Made by a program: the position numbers and the translations under genes. A DNA stretch of 64,000 nucleotides from Erysipelotrichales bacterium (GTDB taxonomy: Bacteria; Bacillota_I; Bacilli_A; Erysipelotrichales; Erysipelotrichaceae), in NCBI GenBank assembly GCA_910576345.1, contig CAJTIT010000014.1:1-64000 (forward strand). The letters are read 5' to 3'. This document shows positions 1 through 58,550 of this stretch, piece after piece (the stretch's first letter is position 1; every line of letters starts with the position of its first letter). The notes under the pieces were generated by a model, which made no database searches, had not been told where the DNA came from, and saw only the letters and a list, made by a program, of their open reading frames with translations.

Positions 1-152
1 ATGCCGGTGAAATAAAACAATGAAAAAGCCTCTTTGAGAGGCAGTTAGAGAAAGCGTTGCGGCTGTCAGGCCTCAATGGTCGAAAAGACCTTACGCAACA
101 ATAGGCCCTTATAGGGCTGGTTCATACCACGTCTTTCAGGCGTGGTTTTGAT
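1..152 (+). other. Block of four hairpins, possible right end of an IS200/IS605 (tnpB) element
   Basis: Four stem-loops follow one another. GCCTC/GAGGC lies near 28-42. GTTGC/GCAAC near 55-100 encloses a GGTC-GAAAA-GACC hairpin. AGGCCC/GGGCT lies near 102-119, and ACCACG/CGTGGT near 126-148 is followed by a T-run. The first five codons read MPVK-stop and could be the tail of a gene lying left of the window. Dense structure just after a stop codon is what tnpB right ends with omega-RNA scaffolds look like, but no transposase is visible here. An attenuator or other structured RNA is equally possible. Confidence 0.35.
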
Positions 153-46396: not shown

Positions 46397-46744
46397 ATGT
46401 TTGTAAACGGATCCTGTCAAGAAATGGATGCAATCGGCATGTTAATGAAAGATATGAATAAACGAGATTGGTATACCATGTATAACAAAAAACGGGTAGA
46501 ACTTATGCGATGTTTTAAAGAAGCACAAGAAGAAAGAGAAGTGTGCAGAGTTATGGAAGAATTAAGAAAAGAAGAACGTGCAAAAGCTTTTTAAGAAGGA
46601 CGTAATGAAGACAGAATCAAACAACAAATGGAAATAACGAAGAATTTGATACAAGAAGGCGATTTATCATTAGAAAGCATATCAGAAGTATCCGGATTAT
46701 CACCCGATAAAGTAAAGAAATTAAAACAAGCAGTCGCAGTTTAA
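46397..46744 (+). pseudogene. Rpn/PD-(D/E)XK nuclease-family transposase remnant
   Basis: Only the C-terminal end of an Rpn-type (recombination-promoting nuclease, 'transposase_31') protein is left. IGMLMKDMNKRDWYTMYNKKRVELMRCFKE matches the conserved stretch before the charged helix, then VMEELRKEERAKAF stops at TAA 46592, and the same frame continues EGRNEDRIKQQMEITKNLIQEGDLSLESISEVSGLSPDKVKKLKQ to 46742. The N-terminal nuclease core is missing. Hence a decayed copy with a deletion and one in-frame stop. AAGAAAGGATG lies before ATG 46397, so a short peptide could still be made. Confidence 0.8.
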
Positions 46745-47046: not shown

Positions 47047-48078
47047 ATGAAAAATCTAGCACTGACAGAATTGGTAAAAAAAGTTGCCGATCAAGATGAA
47101 GAAGCTTTTAATGAGTTGTATCGACGATATTATAAATTGGTCCGCTATATTGCATATGGACTTACCAAAAGCGATGCAGATACAGATGAAATTGTACAGG
47201 AAGTCTTCATACAAGTGCAGAAGTCTATTCATGACCTGAACGATCCAAAATTGTTCAAAGCATGGCTGAGCCGTATTACTTATTCAAAAGCAAAAATGTT
47301 GTTTCGCAAACATCGCGATCATGCGATGGATGAACAATGTTTGGAAGCGTTGAATGCGCAAGAAGAAGAACGTATAGATTTTGTGCCAAGAAGAAATCAA
47401 AGGCGTAATCATGATTTGGAAGTTTTGTTTTCGTGCATGCAGAAACTGAAACCGGATTTTATTGAAGTGTTGATGTTTTATTATTTTTCACAAATGAGCA
47501 TTAAAGAAATCGCAGAATTGTTAGATACACCGGAGGGTACTATCAAAAGTCGTATGTTGTACGCAAAGAAATATTTAAAACATGAAATATTGGCATATGA
47601 AGAAAAAACACAGGAAACAATTACATTCCAGGGAAAAACATTGGAAGCTGCTTTGGTTGCATTTGGTGTACAAATGGTGAGAGAACCCAAAATTCCATCA
47701 TGGAATGTTTTTCGCAATTCTTCTTCTACAGTGACAAAAGCGGCACTTGTAGGGGCTGTATGTGTTTCTGCGATGATTGGGGTCCATGCAGTATTGAATG
47801 ATCAAAATAATGATACTAGCGCAGATGTGCAGGAAACCAAGAAGCAGTTTCAACCTGTTCATTATCGAGGAGAATGGATTGATACCCCCAAAAAGGCCTA
47901 CATTGTTTTGATTCGATGGGCAGATTGTGAAGTTGAAATGCGACAAAAAACAAAAGCGGAGTTTGATGAAGTTATGCCAGTGTATCATGCATTGACAGCT
48001 TTTGGAGAAGGGTATGAAGATTTATTGAAGAAATATGGTTGGGATGATCAATTTGAATATTATTACGCTCAAATTTAG
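47047..48078 (+). CDS. ECF-type sigma factor with its own C-terminal membrane segment
   Basis: A 343-residue protein. Residues 15-85 are sigma region 2 (DEEAFNELYRRYYKLVRYIA, DEIVQEVFIQV, FKAWLSRITYSKA). Residues 125-180 are region 4 with the helix-turn-helix MSIKEIAELLDTPEGTIKSRM. A linker (190-225) is followed by a hydrophobic helix at 231-250 (KAALVGAVCVSAMIGVHAVL) and an extracytoplasmic tail of about 90 residues ending in DQFEYYYAQI. Normal ECF factors stop near residue 190; here a sensor or anti-sigma-like half appears fused on, so the factor may be held at the membrane until a signal releases it. It lies 150 bases upstream of the giant surface protein genes and is the best candidate for their regulator. 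Confidence 0.85.
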   Translation: MKNLALTELVKKVADQDEEAFNELYRRYYKLVRYIAYGLTKSDADTDEIVQEVFIQVQKSIHDLNDPKLFKAWLSRITYSKAKMLFRKHRDHAMDEQCLEALNAQEEERIDFVPRRNQRRNHDLEVLFSCMQKLKPDFIEVLMFYYFSQMSIKEIAELLDTPEGTIKSRMLYAKKYLKHEILAYEEKTQETITFQGKTLEAALVAFGVQMVREPKIPSWNVFRNSSSTVTKAALVGAVCVSAMIGVHAVLNDQNNDTSADVQETKKQFQPVHYRGEWIDTPKKAYIVLIRWADCEVEMRQKTKAEFDEVMPVYHALTAFGEGYEDLLKKYGWDDQFEYYYAQI

Positions 48079-51200: not shown

Positions 51201-53342
51201 GATGTGACGCATGCGCCAAACGGAAGTGGTCGTGTAACTCCTCTGATTACAGAACAAGATCTATCCGGTAATGCAGGAGGAGCCAATGTAGAAGATCCGG
51301 ATTACTATATATCCGTAGGACAAGCAGGAAATGGCATCGCATGGACAAACAATGGTGTCGATATAGAGTACAATTATGACGAAGAAGAAGGAATCATTAT
51401 ACCTCTCCATGTAGAAAAAGAAGGCAATCGAAATTATAACAAAGCAGAAGCAGATGGGACATTGAAAATCTTAGGACAAGAGGAAAGTACATTGGCGATC
51501 AATCAACCGGGAAAAGTGGTATATGGAGATCACTTTACGATACGCTCCTTACAAGATGACAGTTCAAGTACGAATGTGAAGTATACATTTGAAGTAGACA
51601 ATACGATCTATATATCACAACCGAATATAAATGGAAACAAGGCAGAATTTGACGCATTAAAAAACAGTGGCAATACAGAAATAGAGATTAAGGTCACAAG
51701 AACGGCAGATGGAGAAGTAGCGTTAAGCAAGACGATTAAGATCAAAGTACTACCAAAAGATATTGAAATCATCATTGATGATAAACAGAAGAAACAAGGG
51801 GAAGAAAATCCGGAACTCACATTCCAAGATTTCCAAGATCAATTAGTCAGCTGGAATGGAGTGAAAGATCAAGTAGATTCCAATGATGTAAAACTAACCA
51901 CAACAGCGACAACGACAAGTAAAGGAGGAAGTTATCCAATCACAGGAAATCCAAAGACGATGAATGGAAAATATCCAAATTACAATTTCATTTTCACAGA
52001 TGGAAAACTGATGATTGAAGGACTGATCGATAAAGATGTGGATGATGATGGAGAACCGGATTTCAATGATCCCGATGGCGATGGATGTCCTGATCTCAAT
52101 ATCAAATGGAAAGATGATGATGAAAACTGGGTAATCATCAATGGCGATCGAGATTATGATGGGATACCTGACCTCAATATCGACAGTGATGGTGATGGAA
52201 TACCAAACTTAAACATCGATACAGACAAAGATGGTAAACCAGACATCAATTTGGTAATCTTAACGAAAGCACAATGGAAACCAAGCAAATGTGTAGTAGT
52301 GAGTGATATTGTCAAAGTAGAGTATTGTACAGGCACAAATGTAAAACCACAAATCAATGTGGATACAGATAACGATGGTATTCCAAACATCAATATAGAC
52401 AATGAAGGTGATTTCAAGCGACATCTGAATATATCCAAAGATGGAAAAACACCAACTGTAAATATTACGAATGTTCATGAATGGAATCCATCAAAAGATT
52501 ATAAAAGTGGAAAATTCACTTATGATTCCATAGGAAAAGAAATAGAACCACAGATCAACATTGACACCAATGGAGATGATTGTCCGGATATCAACTTAGA
52601 TATGGACAATGATGGTATTCCGGATTTGAATATTGATACGGATGGAGATAAGATACCGGATCTTAATATCGATACAGTTGGTGATGGAAAAGCAGATGCC
52701 AATGTGGATATCGATGATGATGGTATGCCTGATGAAAATATCATAGAAATTACAGAATGGAAACCAGACAAGAAAGTAGGAAACATCTGTACCATGATCA
52801 TTAAGCAAAACACAGAATTAGAGGATAACGGAGTCAAAGTAGAGAAACCGGATGGAACACCATTCTTACCAAATTACGCATTAAAAGTAAACGATGTCAC
52901 AAATATGAAACATTCAGAAATTACAGATGAAGCGAAAGAATTCATTGAAGAAATACAGGAAGTAAAAAAAGTATATGAAGTGAAATTGTTGAAAGATGAT
53001 GTAGAAGTACAACCTGATGGCATATTAAAAGTGAAAATTCCTTATGAAGGAGTTAAAAATCCAATCTTGATAAAACGATTGAAAGATGGCAGTTATGAAA
53101 AAATTGAATATAAAATTGAGAAAGGCTATCTAGTGTATGAAACAGAAGAATTAGGTATCGTATCCATCATTGGAGATAAAGAATTTGATACAAGCGTTCA
53201 AGGAACCTATACTCCAAACATTGGTGGTGCAATTACAGGAGATGAAACAAATATTTATTACTATATAGGAATGATGTTTATCACCTTAGGATTCATTAGT
53301 TATTTATTATTTAAAAGGAATAAGCAGAAAGATACATTTTAA
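48228..53342 (+). CDS. Giant calcium-repeat surface protein, paralogue 1
   Basis: A 1704-residue exported protein. Residues 1-30 form a signal/anchor (KKILILFIAFIGTFSVGYAYY). The head (about 30-290) is unique; its end (RAYTMPYM..., IPIAFNFSNVVFAVSDP) resembles the DUF6273-type fold. Residues 400-1000 are Ig/cadherin-like modules. Residues about 1150-1260 end in an MBG-like module (GSYPITGN..., NYNFIFTDGKL). Three clusters of Asp-rich repeats (DxDxDGxPDLNID, residues 1267-1341, 1371-1398 and 1442-1504) resemble thrombospondin type 3 calcium loops, with conserved Cys (DGCPDLN, NGDDCPD). The tail reads TPNIGGAITGDETN, a membrane helix and RNKQKDTF: a sortase-like signal without Leu-Pro. Ribosome site AAAGGATGAGG. 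Confidence 0.88.
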   Translation: MLKKILILFIAFIGTFSVGYAYYNLSLNAAETMYQSGGFVTGRIGPAGGNNFIKGDRVITDVSFRGTKIDWLIMSNSSQWGSDAVSDNIGLGNNGVFAMSYNQITNVRFRDDISSGEFHAQLSTSNLPSIYTEFNQAIEDNERQKQYVLEHTISQFFVASTNQPVNGDYVAVGEQNNHMAIKYAFPMAHHEIDTKDHGVAGRYGSLENYDRAYTMPYMVGSVNTNGYMTSLGNYITESGAFAQFSTDPSGDNISWFTEMPLRIPIAFNFSNVVFAVSDPYGSDTGGLSEVENVDQIGACGTLYERASNYQPMKFRLRDDTNLGVSFDKITLETDANKEISTVKAGKNIKLFWSNKRSPTNNDYVSVLIEKKNSSAKYDFVYYGNLSKDTSGSFVINTSMLTLGEYRISIVDETISETQAVTYSSSMKSKNITIIEPLLHSINYRKETTTESKYDYEFGKNVNANDIIGKITLTPTATTIFPVTYELLSDGDDSYKNFNISGLDSINSSSSTTLNVMIKADAPDLTRDGLKAGTYKFCITSQDADGIPAEPILNKTKVCTALSVEKADLSVAFDAPNQTKKTIDEAGTNWSEPATVTPRDGTKITYTIVGGDIGLIDIDEDTGEVTYKGNGDFGKVKIRATVDDDPNTGNDNYNPAYTEKEIVIVREVDAAITPDPASSNTSIPSFSMDQINIKAGGTIGKIQGILGTPDTIGESTTTYSYQIKAGGNASFFKVNSGTGVIQTNANLAVGTYTFEITVSDKWSSKDITVKVNVGMSPAEELKFYENSSSDIIITKKNAKVTDTGITVFATVKGSSNHNPVTYKLKDGEPANVIDVNPNSGAVTIKNVGKVIVVAEKQGATGQANAYAELEFTVIAGSQEFIYVDESGNELPKTLDKYQTYEEVYGKDKKFKVHTDGNPAGTNVTYELKNTSPTDVITVDEDGTIHILNASLNKQKGQVIVVATSHDPNGNYEDKTIELPIDITKADQKISFADVTHAPNGSGRVTPLITEQDLSGNAGGANVEDPDYYISVGQAGNGIAWTNNGVDIEYNYDEEEGIIIPLHVEKEGNRNYNKAEADGTLKILGQEESTLAINQPGKVVYGDHFTIRSLQDDSSSTNVKYTFEVDNTIYISQPNINGNKAEFDALKNSGNTEIEIKVTRTADGEVALSKTIKIKVLPKDIEIIIDDKQKKQGEENPELTFQDFQDQLVSWNGVKDQVDSNDVKLTTTATTTSKGGSYPITGNPKTMNGKYPNYNFIFTDGKLMIEGLIDKDVDDDGEPDFNDPDGDGCPDLNIKWKDDDENWVIINGDRDYDGIPDLNIDSDGDGIPNLNIDTDKDGKPDINLVILTKAQWKPSKCVVVSDIVKVEYCTGTNVKPQINVDTDNDGIPNINIDNEGDFKRHLNISKDGKTPTVNITNVHEWNPSKDYKSGKFTYDSIGKEIEPQINIDTNGDDCPDINLDMDNDGIPDLNIDTDGDKIPDLNIDTVGDGKADANVDIDDDGMPDENIIEITEWKPDKKVGNICTMIIKQNTELEDNGVKVEKPDGTPFLPNYALKVNDVTNMKHSEITDEAKEFIEEIQEVKKVYEVKLLKDDVEVQPDGILKVKIPYEGVKNPILIKRLKDGSYEKIEYKIEKGYLVYETEELGIVSIIGDKEFDTSVQGTYTPNIGGAITGDETNIYYYIGMMFITLGFISYLLFKRNKQKDTF

Positions 53343-53361
53343 TAAGGAAAAGTCTGTAATG

Positions 53362-53461
53362 GTAGACATTTTTGAACAGGTGTTTTTTAATAAAAAATGC
53401 CTGTTTTTTTATTCAGAAACATATATTTCAATAAGCTTTTCCTATTTCTATTTAAGTCTAC
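53362..53461. repeat. Switch element copy A (inverted relative to copy B)
   Basis: Bounded by GTAGAC (53362-53367) and GTCTAC (53456-53461). The interior, read on the opposite strand, matches copy B (58418-58516) over about 95 bases with a perfect 35-base core (53400-53434). In this orientation the sequence TTTCAA, 17 bases, TATTTA points toward the gene at 53495 and could be its promoter. Confidence 0.75.
53375..53410. terminator. Symmetrical terminator hairpin inside element A
   Basis: AACAGG-TG-TTTTTT pairs with AAAAAA-TG-CCTGTT around AAT, followed by T residues. The stem works in both directions, so it should terminate paralogue 1. Confidence 0.85.
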
Positions 53462-53494
53462 GTTTGTGGATAGAAATAGAAAGGAAAGAGTTTT

Positions 53495-56400
53495 ATGTGG
53501 AAGAAAATTGTAATTGTATGCATAGTTTTGTTTGGTGGTTTATCTGTTGGATATGCTTATTATAATAGTAATTTGGAAGCATCCACAAATTATTCTTCAG
53601 GAGGTAATATATCGGGCTCGCTAGGTCCTTTAAAGCGAGGAAATCATTTTTATATTCATACAAATCATTATTCATTTGTTGCCGTGGGCAATGATCAAGG
53701 AAATTCTAGTATAGGAACTTTTGCGATTAGTGATAAAGCGATTGGAAGTTTTAAAGAGAGCGGTATTAATTATTATTCTGCTTCAAATTATAGAAAGCTT
53801 ATTCAAAATATGAATGATGGCATTGATTTAGAAGATGTTGATAAAATTATTAAAAAATTTGAAAGACCCAATCTTCCAGGAACTGGTGATTATTGGATAA
53901 GTGATTTCAATTCTTTATCAAGTGATGAAATGCCATATTTTATAGGTGCTTCCTATATGCTTGTTTCCTTTGGCCATTTTGGTAATTTAACTGAATCAGA
54001 TTATAAAAAGTTTTTAATTGATAATACTTGGACGGGAACTTGTGCAACAATCTATTACTATTCTCCTATGTATTGGTTGAATGGTACTTATCAAATTGAT
54101 GGAACAGATACAGTAGCTAGAGGAGCCCAGCCAGGTATTCTATTAAACAATCAGGAAGTGGTGTTTGCGGCATCCAAACCAAACGATACAAGCGATATCA
54201 GCACTGTGGATGAAAGTGGTACAGACCGCATGCAATTAAGAATGAAAGATAATAATTTGTCAGTCAATCTTGATAGTGTGAAAATCAATAAAAATGGTAC
54301 AGAAATAGAGGGAGAAAAAATTATAGCAGGTACCAATTTGGTTGTGCATTATAGTAATGCGACTATAGGTACAGGCAATACGGTTTCATTGATTGTTAAA
54401 AAAGATGGAAGTTGGGTGTACTATAAGCGATTGGGAACAGGGAATGCAAGTGGAAGTTCAGAAATAGATACAAGCGATTGGGATGAAGGAAGTTATGAAT
54501 TTGCGCTTGTCAATGAAGTACTCACCAATGATATGGATCCAACCGTATCATCTGAATTGTCTTCATCAATATCAATAGATGTCGTACCATGTCATGAAAT
54601 CACATATACCAAAACACCACAAAGTGGAGCGACATCCGGCAATGATTATGAATACAGTAAGAATGTGAATGGAGGAAGTGTGGTCGGTAAAATTACATTG
54701 AATCCAACAGGTATAACGCCAATTACGTATTCTATTGAATCGAATGGAGACAATACGTATCAGAACTTTGAAATCGATGGTTTGGACAGTAATGGTGCGT
54801 CTAGTGCGACAACGCTGAATGTGAAAATCAAAAATAATGCGTCAGATTTGGACAATAATTCATTAAAGGCAGGAACTTATAACTTCTGTATTGTTTCCAC
54901 AGATGCGAATGGGTATCCGGATACACAAATCGATGGAAAAACAAAAGTATGTACTTCTTTTGATGTAAAGAAGACAAACTTAGGTGTATCCTTTGATGAT
55001 CCCAATCAAACAAAGAAAACAATCGCAGAAGCAGGGAATACATGGAATGAAACAGCGACTGCGACTCTGGATCATGGAACAAAGGTAACGTATACCAAAG
55101 TTGGAGGAGATATCGGTATGATTGATATTGACTCAAATACAGGAGCTATTACTTATAAAGGAAACAATGCATTTGGAAAGGTAAAGATAAAGGCAACAGT
55201 TGATGATGATCCAAATACCGGCAATGATAATTACAATCCTGCATATGCAGAGAAAGAAATCGTTATCGTTCGTGAAGTCGATGCGACAATAACGCCGGAT
55301 CCTGCATCCAGTGATATAACAATACCTACTTTCTCAATGGAACAGGCAAATATTAAAACTGGTGGAATCATTGGAAAGATACAAGGAATATTAGGAACAC
55401 CGGATACCATTGGTGGAAGTACAACCACTTATTCTTATGCAATAAAACAAGACCCAAACAGTAATGGAAGTTTATTCCAAGTAAATGCAAGTACCGGAGT
55501 CATCAAGGCAAATGCCAATCTAGGTGTAGACACCTATAATTTCAATATCATTGTTTCAGATAAATGGAGTTCAAAAGAAATACTGGTCACAGTGAATGTA
55601 GGAATGGCACCAGCCGAAGTATTGAAATTCTATGAGAATGCAAGTTCAAATACAATCATCACAAAGAAAAGCGCAAAAGTTACAGATACAGGTATTACAG
55701 TATTTGCGACAGTGAAAGGAAGTTCCAATCATAATCCTGTTACTTACAAACTAAAAGATGGAGAGCCAACGAATGTGATTGATGTGAATCCAAACAGTGG
55801 TGCAGTCACGATTAAAAATGTAGGAAAAGTTATCGTACTTGCAGAGAAGAAAGGGGCAACCGGTCAAGCAGATGCAGTAACAGAATTAGAATTCACAGTT
55901 ACTGCAGGAGCGCAAGAATTCATCTATGTGGATGAAAGTGGAAATGAGTTGCCAAAAACATTGGATAAATATCAAACCTATGAGGAAGTGTACGGAAAAG
56001 ATAAGACTTTCAATGTTCATACAGATGGCAATCCGGCAGGGACTAACGTCACATATGAATTAAAGAACACAAGTCCAACCGATGTGATCACAGTGGATGA
56101 AGATGGAACGATTCATATATTGAATGCAAGTCTGAACAAGCAAAAAGGACAAGTGATTGTAGTAGCGACGAGTCATGATCCGAATGGAAACTATGAAGAT
56201 AAGACGATTGAATTACCAATCGATATTACCAAAGCAGATCAAAAGATATCCTTCGCAGATGTGACACATGCGCCAAACGGAAGTGGTCGTGTAACTCCTC
56301 TGATTACAGAACAAGATCTATCCGGTAATGCAGGAGGAGCCAATGTAGAAGATCCAGATTACTATATATCCGTAGGACAAGCAGGAAATGGCATCGCATG

Positions 56401-58402
56401 GACAAACAATGGTGTCGATATAGAGTACAATTATGACGAAGAAGAAGGAATCATTATACCTCTCCATGTAGAAAAAGAAGGTAATCGAAATTACAACAAA
56501 GCAGAAGCAGATGGGACATTAAAAATCTTAGGACAAGAGGAAAGTACGTTGGCAATCAATCAACCGGGAAAAGTCGTATATGGAGATCACTTTACAATAC
56601 GCTCCTTACAAGATGACAGTTCAAGTACGAATGTGAAGTATACGTTTGAAGTAGACAATACGATCTATATATCACAACCGAATATAAATGGAAACAAGGC
56701 AGAATTTGATGCATTAAAGAACAGTGGCAACACAGAAATCAGTATCAAAGTGACAAGAACGGCGGATGGAGAAGTAGCGTTAAGCAAGACGATTAAGATC
56801 AAAGTACTACCAAAAGATATTGAAATCATCATTGATGATAAACAGAAGAAACAAGGGGAAGAAAATCCGGAACTCACATTCCAAGATTTTCAAGATCAAT
56901 TAGTCAGTTGGAATGGAGTGAAAGATCAAGTAGATTCCAATGATGTAAAACTAACCACAACAGCGACAACGACAAGCAAAGGCGGAAGTTATCCGATCAC
57001 AGGAAATCCAAAGGAATTGAATGGAAAATATTCAAACTATAATTTCATCTTCAAAGAAGGCAAGTTGATGGTAGAAGGCATGATTGATAAAGATGTGGAT
57101 GATGATGGAAAACCTGACTTCAATGATTCCGATGGAGATGGATGTCCTGATCTCAATATCAAATGGAAAGATGATGATGAAAACTGGGTAATCATCAATG
57201 GCGATCGAGATTATGATGGGATACCTGACCTCAATATCGACAGTGATGGAGATGGAATAGCAGACTTAAACATCGATACAGACAATGATGGTAAACCAGA
57301 CATCAATTTGGTAATCTTAACGAAAGCACAATGGAAACCAAGCAAATGTGTAGTAGTGAGTGATATTGTCAAAGTAGAGTATTGTACAGATACGAGGGTT
57401 AAACCACAAATCAATGTGGATACAGATAACGATGGTATTCCAAATATCAATATAGACAATGAAGGTGATTTCAAGCCACATCTGAATATATCCAAAGATG
57501 GAAAAACACCAACTGTAAATATTACGAATGTTCATGAATGGAATCCATCAAAAGACTATAAAAGTGGAAAATTCACTTATGATTCCATAGGAAAAGAAAT
57601 AGAACCACAGATCAACATTGACACCAATGGAGATGATTGTCCGGATATCAACTTAGATATGGACAATGATGGTATTCCGGATTTGAATATTGATACGGAT
57701 GGAGATAAGATACCGGATCTTAATATAGATACAACAGGTAATGGAAAAGCAGATGTTAATGTGGATAAGGATGATGATGGAGTCGCAGACGAAAACATTA
57801 TAGAAATCACAGAATGGAAACCTGATAAAAAAGTAGGAAACATCTGCACGATGGTAATCAAGCAAAATACGGAATTAGAGGATAATGGAGTTAAAGTAGA
57901 GAAACCAGATGGAAAACCATTTCCACCAGATTATGAATTAAAGGTTGAAGATGTCACAGAAGAATACTTAGATGAAATCAAAGAAGAAATGAAGGAAACG
58001 ATAAAAGAAACAAATGAGATTAAGAAAGTATTCGATGTAAAACTACTAAAAGATGGAGTAGAAATTCAACCAGATGGAGTATTGAAAGTAAAGATACCGT
58101 ATGAAGGAATTACAAATCCAATCTTGGTCAGAAGATTATCGGACGGAACCTATGAAAAGATAGAATACAAAATCGAAGGCGGATATCTTGTATATGAAAC
58201 AGATGAATTGGGAATTGTATCCATCATTGGAGATAAAGAATTCAATTCAAGTGTGCAAGGGACTTATACGCCAAACATTGGTGGTGCGATTACAGGAGAT
58301 GAAACAAACATTCATTTCTATATCGGAATTGGCTTTATTGCATTAGGATTGATCAGTTATTTAGGATTTAAAAGAAACAAACAGAAAGATACGTTTCAAT
58401 AA
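53495..58402 (+). CDS. Giant calcium-repeat surface protein, paralogue 2
   Basis: A 1635-residue exported protein of the same build as its neighbours. Signal/anchor KKIVIVCIVLFGGLSVGYAYY. The head (about 30-240) is short and different from the others (NHFYIHTNHYSFVAVGND..., then GILLNNQEVVFAASKP at its end). Ig/cadherin-like stalk, MBG-like module (NYNFIFKEGKLMVEG), Asp-rich calcium repeats at residues about 1197-1270 and 1371-1435, and the tail GAITGDETNIHFYIG with a basic end. From about 55670 to 57720 the DNA is nearly identical to paralogue 1. The last 160 residues (EEYLDEIKEEMKETIKETNE) follow paralogue 3 instead. The start ATG has GAAAGGAAAGAG. Its leader can form a 10-pair hairpin. Confidence 0.87.
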   Translation: MWKKIVIVCIVLFGGLSVGYAYYNSNLEASTNYSSGGNISGSLGPLKRGNHFYIHTNHYSFVAVGNDQGNSSIGTFAISDKAIGSFKESGINYYSASNYRKLIQNMNDGIDLEDVDKIIKKFERPNLPGTGDYWISDFNSLSSDEMPYFIGASYMLVSFGHFGNLTESDYKKFLIDNTWTGTCATIYYYSPMYWLNGTYQIDGTDTVARGAQPGILLNNQEVVFAASKPNDTSDISTVDESGTDRMQLRMKDNNLSVNLDSVKINKNGTEIEGEKIIAGTNLVVHYSNATIGTGNTVSLIVKKDGSWVYYKRLGTGNASGSSEIDTSDWDEGSYEFALVNEVLTNDMDPTVSSELSSSISIDVVPCHEITYTKTPQSGATSGNDYEYSKNVNGGSVVGKITLNPTGITPITYSIESNGDNTYQNFEIDGLDSNGASSATTLNVKIKNNASDLDNNSLKAGTYNFCIVSTDANGYPDTQIDGKTKVCTSFDVKKTNLGVSFDDPNQTKKTIAEAGNTWNETATATLDHGTKVTYTKVGGDIGMIDIDSNTGAITYKGNNAFGKVKIKATVDDDPNTGNDNYNPAYAEKEIVIVREVDATITPDPASSDITIPTFSMEQANIKTGGIIGKIQGILGTPDTIGGSTTTYSYAIKQDPNSNGSLFQVNASTGVIKANANLGVDTYNFNIIVSDKWSSKEILVTVNVGMAPAEVLKFYENASSNTIITKKSAKVTDTGITVFATVKGSSNHNPVTYKLKDGEPTNVIDVNPNSGAVTIKNVGKVIVLAEKKGATGQADAVTELEFTVTAGAQEFIYVDESGNELPKTLDKYQTYEEVYGKDKTFNVHTDGNPAGTNVTYELKNTSPTDVITVDEDGTIHILNASLNKQKGQVIVVATSHDPNGNYEDKTIELPIDITKADQKISFADVTHAPNGSGRVTPLITEQDLSGNAGGANVEDPDYYISVGQAGNGIAWTNNGVDIEYNYDEEEGIIIPLHVEKEGNRNYNKAEADGTLKILGQEESTLAINQPGKVVYGDHFTIRSLQDDSSSTNVKYTFEVDNTIYISQPNINGNKAEFDALKNSGNTEISIKVTRTADGEVALSKTIKIKVLPKDIEIIIDDKQKKQGEENPELTFQDFQDQLVSWNGVKDQVDSNDVKLTTTATTTSKGGSYPITGNPKELNGKYSNYNFIFKEGKLMVEGMIDKDVDDDGKPDFNDSDGDGCPDLNIKWKDDDENWVIINGDRDYDGIPDLNIDSDGDGIADLNIDTDNDGKPDINLVILTKAQWKPSKCVVVSDIVKVEYCTDTRVKPQINVDTDNDGIPNINIDNEGDFKPHLNISKDGKTPTVNITNVHEWNPSKDYKSGKFTYDSIGKEIEPQINIDTNGDDCPDINLDMDNDGIPDLNIDTDGDKIPDLNIDTTGNGKADVNVDKDDDGVADENIIEITEWKPDKKVGNICTMVIKQNTELEDNGVKVEKPDGKPFPPDYELKVEDVTEEYLDEIKEEMKETIKETNEIKKVFDVKLLKDGVEIQPDGVLKVKIPYEGITNPILVRRLSDGTYEKIEYKIEGGYLVYETDELGIVSIIGDKEFNSSVQGTYTPNIGGAITGDETNIHFYIGIGFIALGLISYLGFKRNKQKDTFQ

Positions 58403-58417
58403 AAAAATGTCTAGCTA

Positions 58418-58516
58418 AGTAGACAAAAATAGATAAAGGAAAATGTTATTGAAATATATGTTTCTGAATAAAAAAACAGGTATTTTTGATTAAAAACACC
58501 TGTTCAGAAACGTCTA
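58418..58516. repeat. Switch element copy B (inverted relative to copy A)
   Basis: Bounded by GTAGAC (58418-58423) and GTCTAC (58511-58516). The interior matches copy A read on the other strand, with a perfect core at 58445-58479. In this orientation the TTTCAA-17-TATTTT pair points away from the downstream gene, toward the end of paralogue 2. After GTCTAC both copies continue with the same direct sequence (GTTTGTGGA.AGAAATAGAAAGG). Confidence 0.75.
58474..58503. terminator. Symmetrical terminator hairpin inside element B
   Basis: AACAGGT-ATTTTT pairs with AAAAAC-ACCTGTT around GATT. It has fewer flanking T residues on the plus side than copy A, because the element is inverted. Confidence 0.6.
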
Positions 58517-58550
58517 CGTTTGTGGACAGAAATAGAAAGGAACGAGTGCA

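Follow-up and report, generated by a model that had tools for sequence, protein, structure and literature searches.

Among described systems, the cwpV switch (Cdi1) of Clostridioides difficile comes closest to the elements analyzed here; in it, a single 195-bp invertible segment with 21-bp inverted repeats lies in the 5′ leader of one gene (PMC2784873; PMC8844915). This segment contains neither a promoter nor a coding sequence; the promoter is located upstream, an intrinsic terminator has been proposed to form in the OFF transcript, and the segment is flipped by RecV (PMC2784873; PMC8844915). Two further switches of C. difficile are likewise single loci: inversion in the transcribed leader of the flg switch alters read-through and uses Rho, and the cmr switch carries a promoter in its ON orientation (PMC7446863, PMC8844915). 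Many invertible promoters for surface components are found in Bacteroides, with Mpi as the serine invertase (PMC4747536). The vpma locus of Mycoplasma agalactiae comprises tandem surface-protein genes with terminators between the genes and is subject to inversions (PMC2268961). Finally, a survey of invertons in defined gut communities described invertible elements near surface genes throughout genomes and left the role of motifs downstream of genes, e.g., terminators, to future work (PMC11892184). Our literature search retrieved no paper using the phrase "invertible terminator" and none joining DNA inversion with a relevant Erysipelotrichaceae system.

The window analyzed here is the whole stretch of 64,000 nt. 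On its plus strand, three giant paralogous surface-protein genes are arranged in tandem behind an ECF-type sigma factor gene (Table 1). Each of the two spacers between the paralogues contains one element of about 100 bp bordered by GTAGAC and GTCTAC, and the two elements, A and B, have opposite orientations. This arrangement had been described in an earlier note on the same DNA and was confirmed, except that copy B (58419-58517) starts one base later than given there. As also stated there, the interiors match only when one of them is reverse-complemented (89% over 99-100 bp), and the sequence from GTCTAC onward runs in the same direction in both copies (94% over 36 bases). Paralogue 3 lacks the QKDTFQ/motif-M tail, and no element is located 3′ of it. 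No Rfam family matched in the window. Upstream of the sigma factor gene, a reading frame at 46398-46744 is broken by an in-frame TAA and appears to be a decayed gene.

Table 1. Coordinates, strand and supporting basis of the array features in the 64,000-nt window.
Feature	Position	Strand	Basis
ECF-type sigma factor gene with C-terminal extension, array head	47047..48078	+	Pfam Sigma70_r2 4e-14, Sigma70_r4_2 8e-10
Paralogue 1, giant surface protein, 1704 aa	48228..53342	+	ORF; MBG_2 domain
Gene-end motif M (CAGAAAGATACATTTTAATAA), in overlap with the final codons of paralogue 1	53325..53345	+	Direct repeat D11; last seven codons near-free of synonymous variation (38 genes)
Element A, putative left crossover site, 26 bp, centre AG of GT-AG-AC	53352..53377	.	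Half-site pattern in arms; exact crossover point putative
Element A, forward orientation, terminator facing paralogue 2	53362..53461	+	Repeat and family comparison
Element A, predicted intrinsic terminator (hairpin of 15 pairs at 53374-53406, then T-rich tail)	53374..53416	+	1 found vs 0.0 expected in shuffles; compensatory changes
Motif M inside element A (CAGAAACATATATTTCAATAA)	53414..53434	+	Near-invariant columns; fixed distance to core
Element A, putative right crossover site, 26 bp, centre CT of GT-CT-AC	53446..53471	.	Arm pattern
Ribosome-binding site of paralogue 2, predicted to pair with the right end of element A	53480..53488	+	Sequence; family-wide unpaired probability
Paralogue 2, 1635 aa	53495..58402	+	ORF, domain search
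Motif M at end of paralogue 2	58382..58402	+	Repeat; codon conservation
Element B, putative left crossover site, 26 bp	58409..58434	.	TCTAN5GTAGACN5TAGA matched in full (58410-58433)
Element B, inverted orientation, terminator pointing away from paralogue 3	58419..58517	-	Repeat and family comparison
Inverted motif M of element B, predicted to form a hairpin with the complementary end motif of paralogue 2	58446..58466	-	Inverted repeat I5, 86%; about -21 kcal/mol
Terminator hairpin of element B, predicted not to terminate transcription toward paralogue 3	58474..58505	-	Consensus scan, minus strand
Element B, putative right crossover site, 26 bp	58502..58527	.	Arm pattern
Paralogue 3, final array gene, 1667 aa	58551..63554	+	ORF

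In the forward layout, the element consists from left to right of GTAGAC, a hairpin, a T-run, motif M, a pyrimidine-rich stretch and GTCTAC. It is preceded by a flank U, formed by the end of the upstream gene, which carries a further copy of motif M, and followed by a flank D, which comprises the leader and the ribosome-binding site of the next gene. Because the U-tract overlaps the stem, terminators were scored by direct stem and tail counts; on this basis, the hairpin has 14 columns whose pairing is conserved in no fewer than 51 of 53 copies, compensatory changes on both sides included, and the T-tract following the hairpin comprises 6-7 of 8 bases in all 60 forward readings and mostly 2-5 in the inverted ones. 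A consensus scan of the window placed a terminator at A on the plus strand and at B on the minus strand, where 0.0 were expected. Judged by stem and tail, each element carries a conserved, predicted one-way intrinsic terminator, present in one orientation only, which would presumably also act in vivo.

The element is also predicted to act on the ribosome-binding site of the next gene, whose family-wide mean unpaired probability was computed as 0.19 in the forward and 0.69 in the inverted state. Shuffling of the right half of the element gave 0.29, which shows that part of this effect is due to its pyrimidine-rich composition. According to these folding predictions, the forward orientation tends to hide the next ribosome-binding site by pairing of the right element end with the leader. 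Since what flips seems to be a one-way terminator together with a stretch able to pair with the next ribosome-binding site, the assignment made previously, paralogue 2 on and paralogue 3 off, is probably reversed: A, in forward orientation, should block paralogue 2, and B, in inverted orientation, should let transcription pass from paralogue 2 to paralogue 3.

The orientation of the elements was compared across 67 intact copies, a count that covers the retrieved copies of an incomplete list. The arrangement is U-element-D in 39 of them and U-inverted element-D in 27, and one has U on both sides. Counted by distinct flank pair, 34 are forward, 22 are inverted and 4 are found in both states. At four loci of the window's own genome (L011, L013, L019, and L025), U, element and D are identical but the element is flipped, and the two versions are joined across a short run of N. 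The duplicated flanks stop exactly at the N run in L011 and L025, whereas those of L019 show a few mismatches ahead of it. The simplest interpretation is that both states of a single locus were assembled and then placed in series during scaffolding. Because both orientations occur with identical flanks at these four loci, both states were probably present in the sequenced DNA. This evidence comes from one draft assembly, which could represent a strain mixture; a mixture would look alike, yet it would still mean two states with otherwise identical flanks.

Of 26 element pairs with at most four differences, 14 are in opposite states, and several of these represent one locus present twice in the assembly. 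Neighboring spacers of genome G002 contain elements that are one or two bases different and flipped. An orthologous stand-alone element of G002, G004, G005, and G006 (L226, L227, L228, and L229) is forward in all four and is uninformative as a cross-species flip test. Uniformly forward orthologs would also be expected of a MITE-like or BOX-like dispersed repeat that carries a terminator, was inserted both ways and does not flip, and the multi-copy occurrence, the short length and the terminal inverted hexamers are in line with such a repeat as well. This explanation is nevertheless highly improbable, given pairs with identical flanks on both sides in which the interior alone is flipped, and borders at which element and flank together match a recombination site on either side, the half-sites beyond the element being conserved as well. 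Moreover, no target-site duplication was seen, and an unsystematic inspection revealed no empty site. Inversion of the elements between GTAGAC and GTCTAC, as had been proposed for this locus, is well supported by comparison, through the two states between equivalent flanks and the four opposite-state pairs with identical flanks, and flipping is presumably ongoing in the cells.

Element A with short flanks, used as query, matched 40 places in the window's own genome (best 1e-79 to 1e-20), and each of six genomes of the same genus gave between 1 and 21 scored places. In contrast, 34 genomes from outside the genus but within its family and order gave two short, weak matches (E 2e-4 and 8e-4), both in one genome, so that chance is excluded. 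In a wider sample of the family, matches at 1e-6 were obtained in 5 of 146 genomes, and all five belong to the same genus. The element family is therefore confined, in these searches, to one Erysipelotrichaceae genus. The two richest genomes hold about 20 or more copies each. Relatives with named records are assigned to Erysipelotrichales or Erysipelotrichaceae (isolate A81, strain c-19, and metagenome bins), and diverged copies with the same layout were recovered by a search with the borders only.

The pattern gTCTAnWWAnGT was found, in approximate form, in all four arms on both sides of the AG/CT dinucleotide and is weakest in the arm inside the left end of the element. With at most one mismatch, TCTAN5GTAGACN5TAGA occurs at 33 places in the window's own genome, compared with 2 for the reversed control. 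Sites of serine invertases of the Hin/Gin type have a length of 26 bp and consist of 12-bp half-sites around a non-palindromic 2-bp overlap. The arms of the elements seem to fit this layout, the left arm least well.

Related structures were observed elsewhere. Single near-perfect palindromes with the same half-sites (TCTAnAAA..GTNNAC..TTTnTAGA) and other center dinucleotides are located at L209:1049, L210:1042, L211:1036, L212:1008, and L213:1059; several of them adjoin a hairpin and a T-run, and no inverted partner was seen. Half elements were found at array ends (L017:144, L026:2262, and L025:8534), the left half with the terminator after the last gene and the right half before the first gene. 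On two contigs (L017:6896-7804 and L189:220-1010), the same surface-gene fragment (MKIYNLILLMVDIDGDG...) comes directly after an integrase C-terminus, which looks like the insertion of a mobile element into the repeats of surface genes.

No recombinase is encoded in the window, in agreement with the earlier note, as none of the PF00589 or PF00239 matches is located on its contig (C14). The search of the genome for such an enzyme, which had been suggested as well, yielded a candidate whose role as the acting enzyme is putative. It is a small serine recombinase of about 210 aa with a resolvase N-terminal domain, which is encoded outside the window, is 90-93% identical in five further genomes of the genus, and is close in sequence to Sin and gamma-delta resolvase, for which structures have been solved. 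In G003, a genome of 86% completeness, no counterpart was found. The NCBIfam model of Mpi is among the weak matches of the candidate, with a score of 39.6 bits, far below the cut-off of 272. This serine recombinase is the best candidate for flipping the elements, as their borders are compatible with a pair of 12-bp half-sites separated by a 2-bp overlap. Relatives with 64-82% identity are present in five genera without detectable elements, and an element search in other genera carrying the candidate gave nothing above the control; the co-occurrence is therefore suggestive and no proof. A 376-aa tyrosine recombinase common to four species was rejected as the common enzyme, as it is absent from the window's own genome.

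A promoter-like pair TTTCAA-17-TATTTA had been proposed within the element, and it is not above chance. A scan of the element with a sigma-70 weight matrix gave a best score of 5.67 compared to 5.67 for shuffled sequences in forward and 5.07 compared to 5.63 in inverted direction. The consensus promoter scan found none at A; its one weak match near B is on the minus strand, lies outside the element and is within chance. The situation at the array heads is different: the motif GAAC-15..19-[GTC]TC, which resembles known ECF promoters, occurs in 11 of the 18 leaders between a sigma factor gene and the next gene in the window's own genome, compared with 0.5 in shuffles, and in 0 of 60 forward and 1 of 60 inverted element spacers. 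The other seven leaders lack the motif; that of the window itself has GAAT (GAATTTC...) instead of GAAC, which is only a weak variant of an ECF promoter. Since this ECF-like motif is located in the array-head leaders, the transcription start is placed there, and the downstream genes should consequently depend on read-through. The sigma gene of the window has 22 relatives in the same genome. Together they make up a large set of paralogous ECF sigma factors that have C-terminal extensions, and many of their genes are located directly 5′ of giant surface-protein genes with an ECF-type promoter in between.

Based on these scans, a sigma-70 or ECF promoter in the element, in either direction, is not supported above chance; a promoter of an unknown class is possible, with motif M being almost invariant. 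Of the invertible promoter switch that had been proposed originally, invertibility holds and the promoter does not. We regard it as unlikely that the element contains a promoter which drives the downstream gene in just one of the two orientations, even though most known small invertible elements act in this way, motif M contains TATATT, which is similar to a -10 box, and the first-in-array copy at L025:8534 retains only the right half. In addition to the negative scans, no -35-like hexamer is found at a fixed distance from TATATT, the elements carry a conserved terminator of strict polarity instead, and several stand-alone elements have a promoter-like TATACT upstream of the element and not inside it.

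In 38 genes preceding an element, the last seven codons show almost no synonymous variation, whereas the codons further upstream vary. In the diverged subfamilies L189, L191, L025, and L133, changes in the gene-end copy of motif M tend to be accompanied by changes in the element copy, but the cross-comparison is not clean, as some non-cognate pairs score equally high. In the inverted state both copies are complementary, and for the window loci a hairpin of about -21 kcal/mol is predicted. Motif M could be an accessory recombination site or an RNA structure of the inverted state.

One copy (L024:2351-2450) has a gene-end flank on both sides (U-element-U inverted) and is located next to an N gap; it is possibly the junction of a gene-scale inversion or may be an assembly artifact. 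It is the sole hint of an inversion of the whole 5-kb gene, which had also been considered for the window and is possible in principle, since the cores at 53456 and 58419 are mutually inverted. The same copy could be taken to indicate that the elements mainly serve the recombination of whole genes, which would be shuffled or exchanged as in a shufflon or a cassette system, with the terminator as mere punctuation. Inverted cores do flank whole genes, and an element with its upstream end recurs with different downstream genes, or the reverse (L019/L024, the L082 pair, and L101/L102). However, identity in these recurring pairs decays gradually over hundreds of bases and does not stop at the core, which fits homologous exchange among paralogues, and copies differ far more often by small inversions than in any other way, so that gene shuffling as the main function is very doubtful.

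We therefore consider it likely that the elements are invertible terminators inside ECF-driven operons, which stop transcription in the forward and allow read-through in the inverted orientation. Transcription would start at the array head, usually from an ECF-type promoter just behind the ECF sigma factor gene. In the forward state, as in element A, the hairpin and the T-run would stop RNA polymerase after the upstream gene, and any RNA leaking through would tend to mask the next ribosome-binding site by its folding. In the inverted state, as in element B, the T-run would lie on the wrong side, so that the polymerase enters the next gene and its ribosome-binding site is free. A site-specific recombinase would flip each element at the GT-AG-AC/GT-CT-AC borders. 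For the window as sequenced, it is predicted that only paralogue 1 is made and that paralogues 2 and 3 form one read-through unit, which would be switched on if A flips. A broader version, in which one core serine recombinase flips the terminators genome-wide, the flip states determine how far each operon is read out, each cell expresses a different array prefix, and the paired motif M provides the inverted state with an RNA structure or a protein-binding structure of its own, is proposed tentatively, as plausible but somewhat short of probable.

Like the cwpV switch, the system described here combines a small invertible segment without coding sequence, a terminator in one orientation only, a large surface protein and a candidate recombinase gene located elsewhere, although here the terminator and the recombinase are predicted from sequence. 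The promoter of cwpV lies upstream; here, the ECF-type motif was found at 11 of 18 array heads and the starts are predicted from sequence as well. Unlike cwpV, the elements are about 100 bp long with identical borders of only 6 bp, are present in dozens of copies, and are mostly located between the genes of tandem arrays. They further differ by the separate effect on the ribosome-binding site and by a site geometry that suggests a serine recombinase, whereas RecV is a tyrosine recombinase. The flg switch shares with them an inversion in a transcribed leader that alters read-through, but in contrast to flg and cmr the present elements occupy many loci. In Bacteroides many invertible elements serve surface components as well, but those carry promoters, and none above chance was detected in the elements described here. 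The vpma sites in 5′ regions rearrange genes beside a promoter, and the vpma terminators do not flip as units, unlike what is proposed for the present elements. If the proposed mechanism is true, phase variation would set the length of transcription along an operon and not the firing of a promoter, and dozens of switches in one gut bacterium would lead to very many possible surface states. The mechanism of cwpV, known from single loci, would thereby be extended to a multi-copy intercistronic system, and the question of invertible elements acting as terminators, left by the gut inverton survey (PMC11892184), would be addressed.
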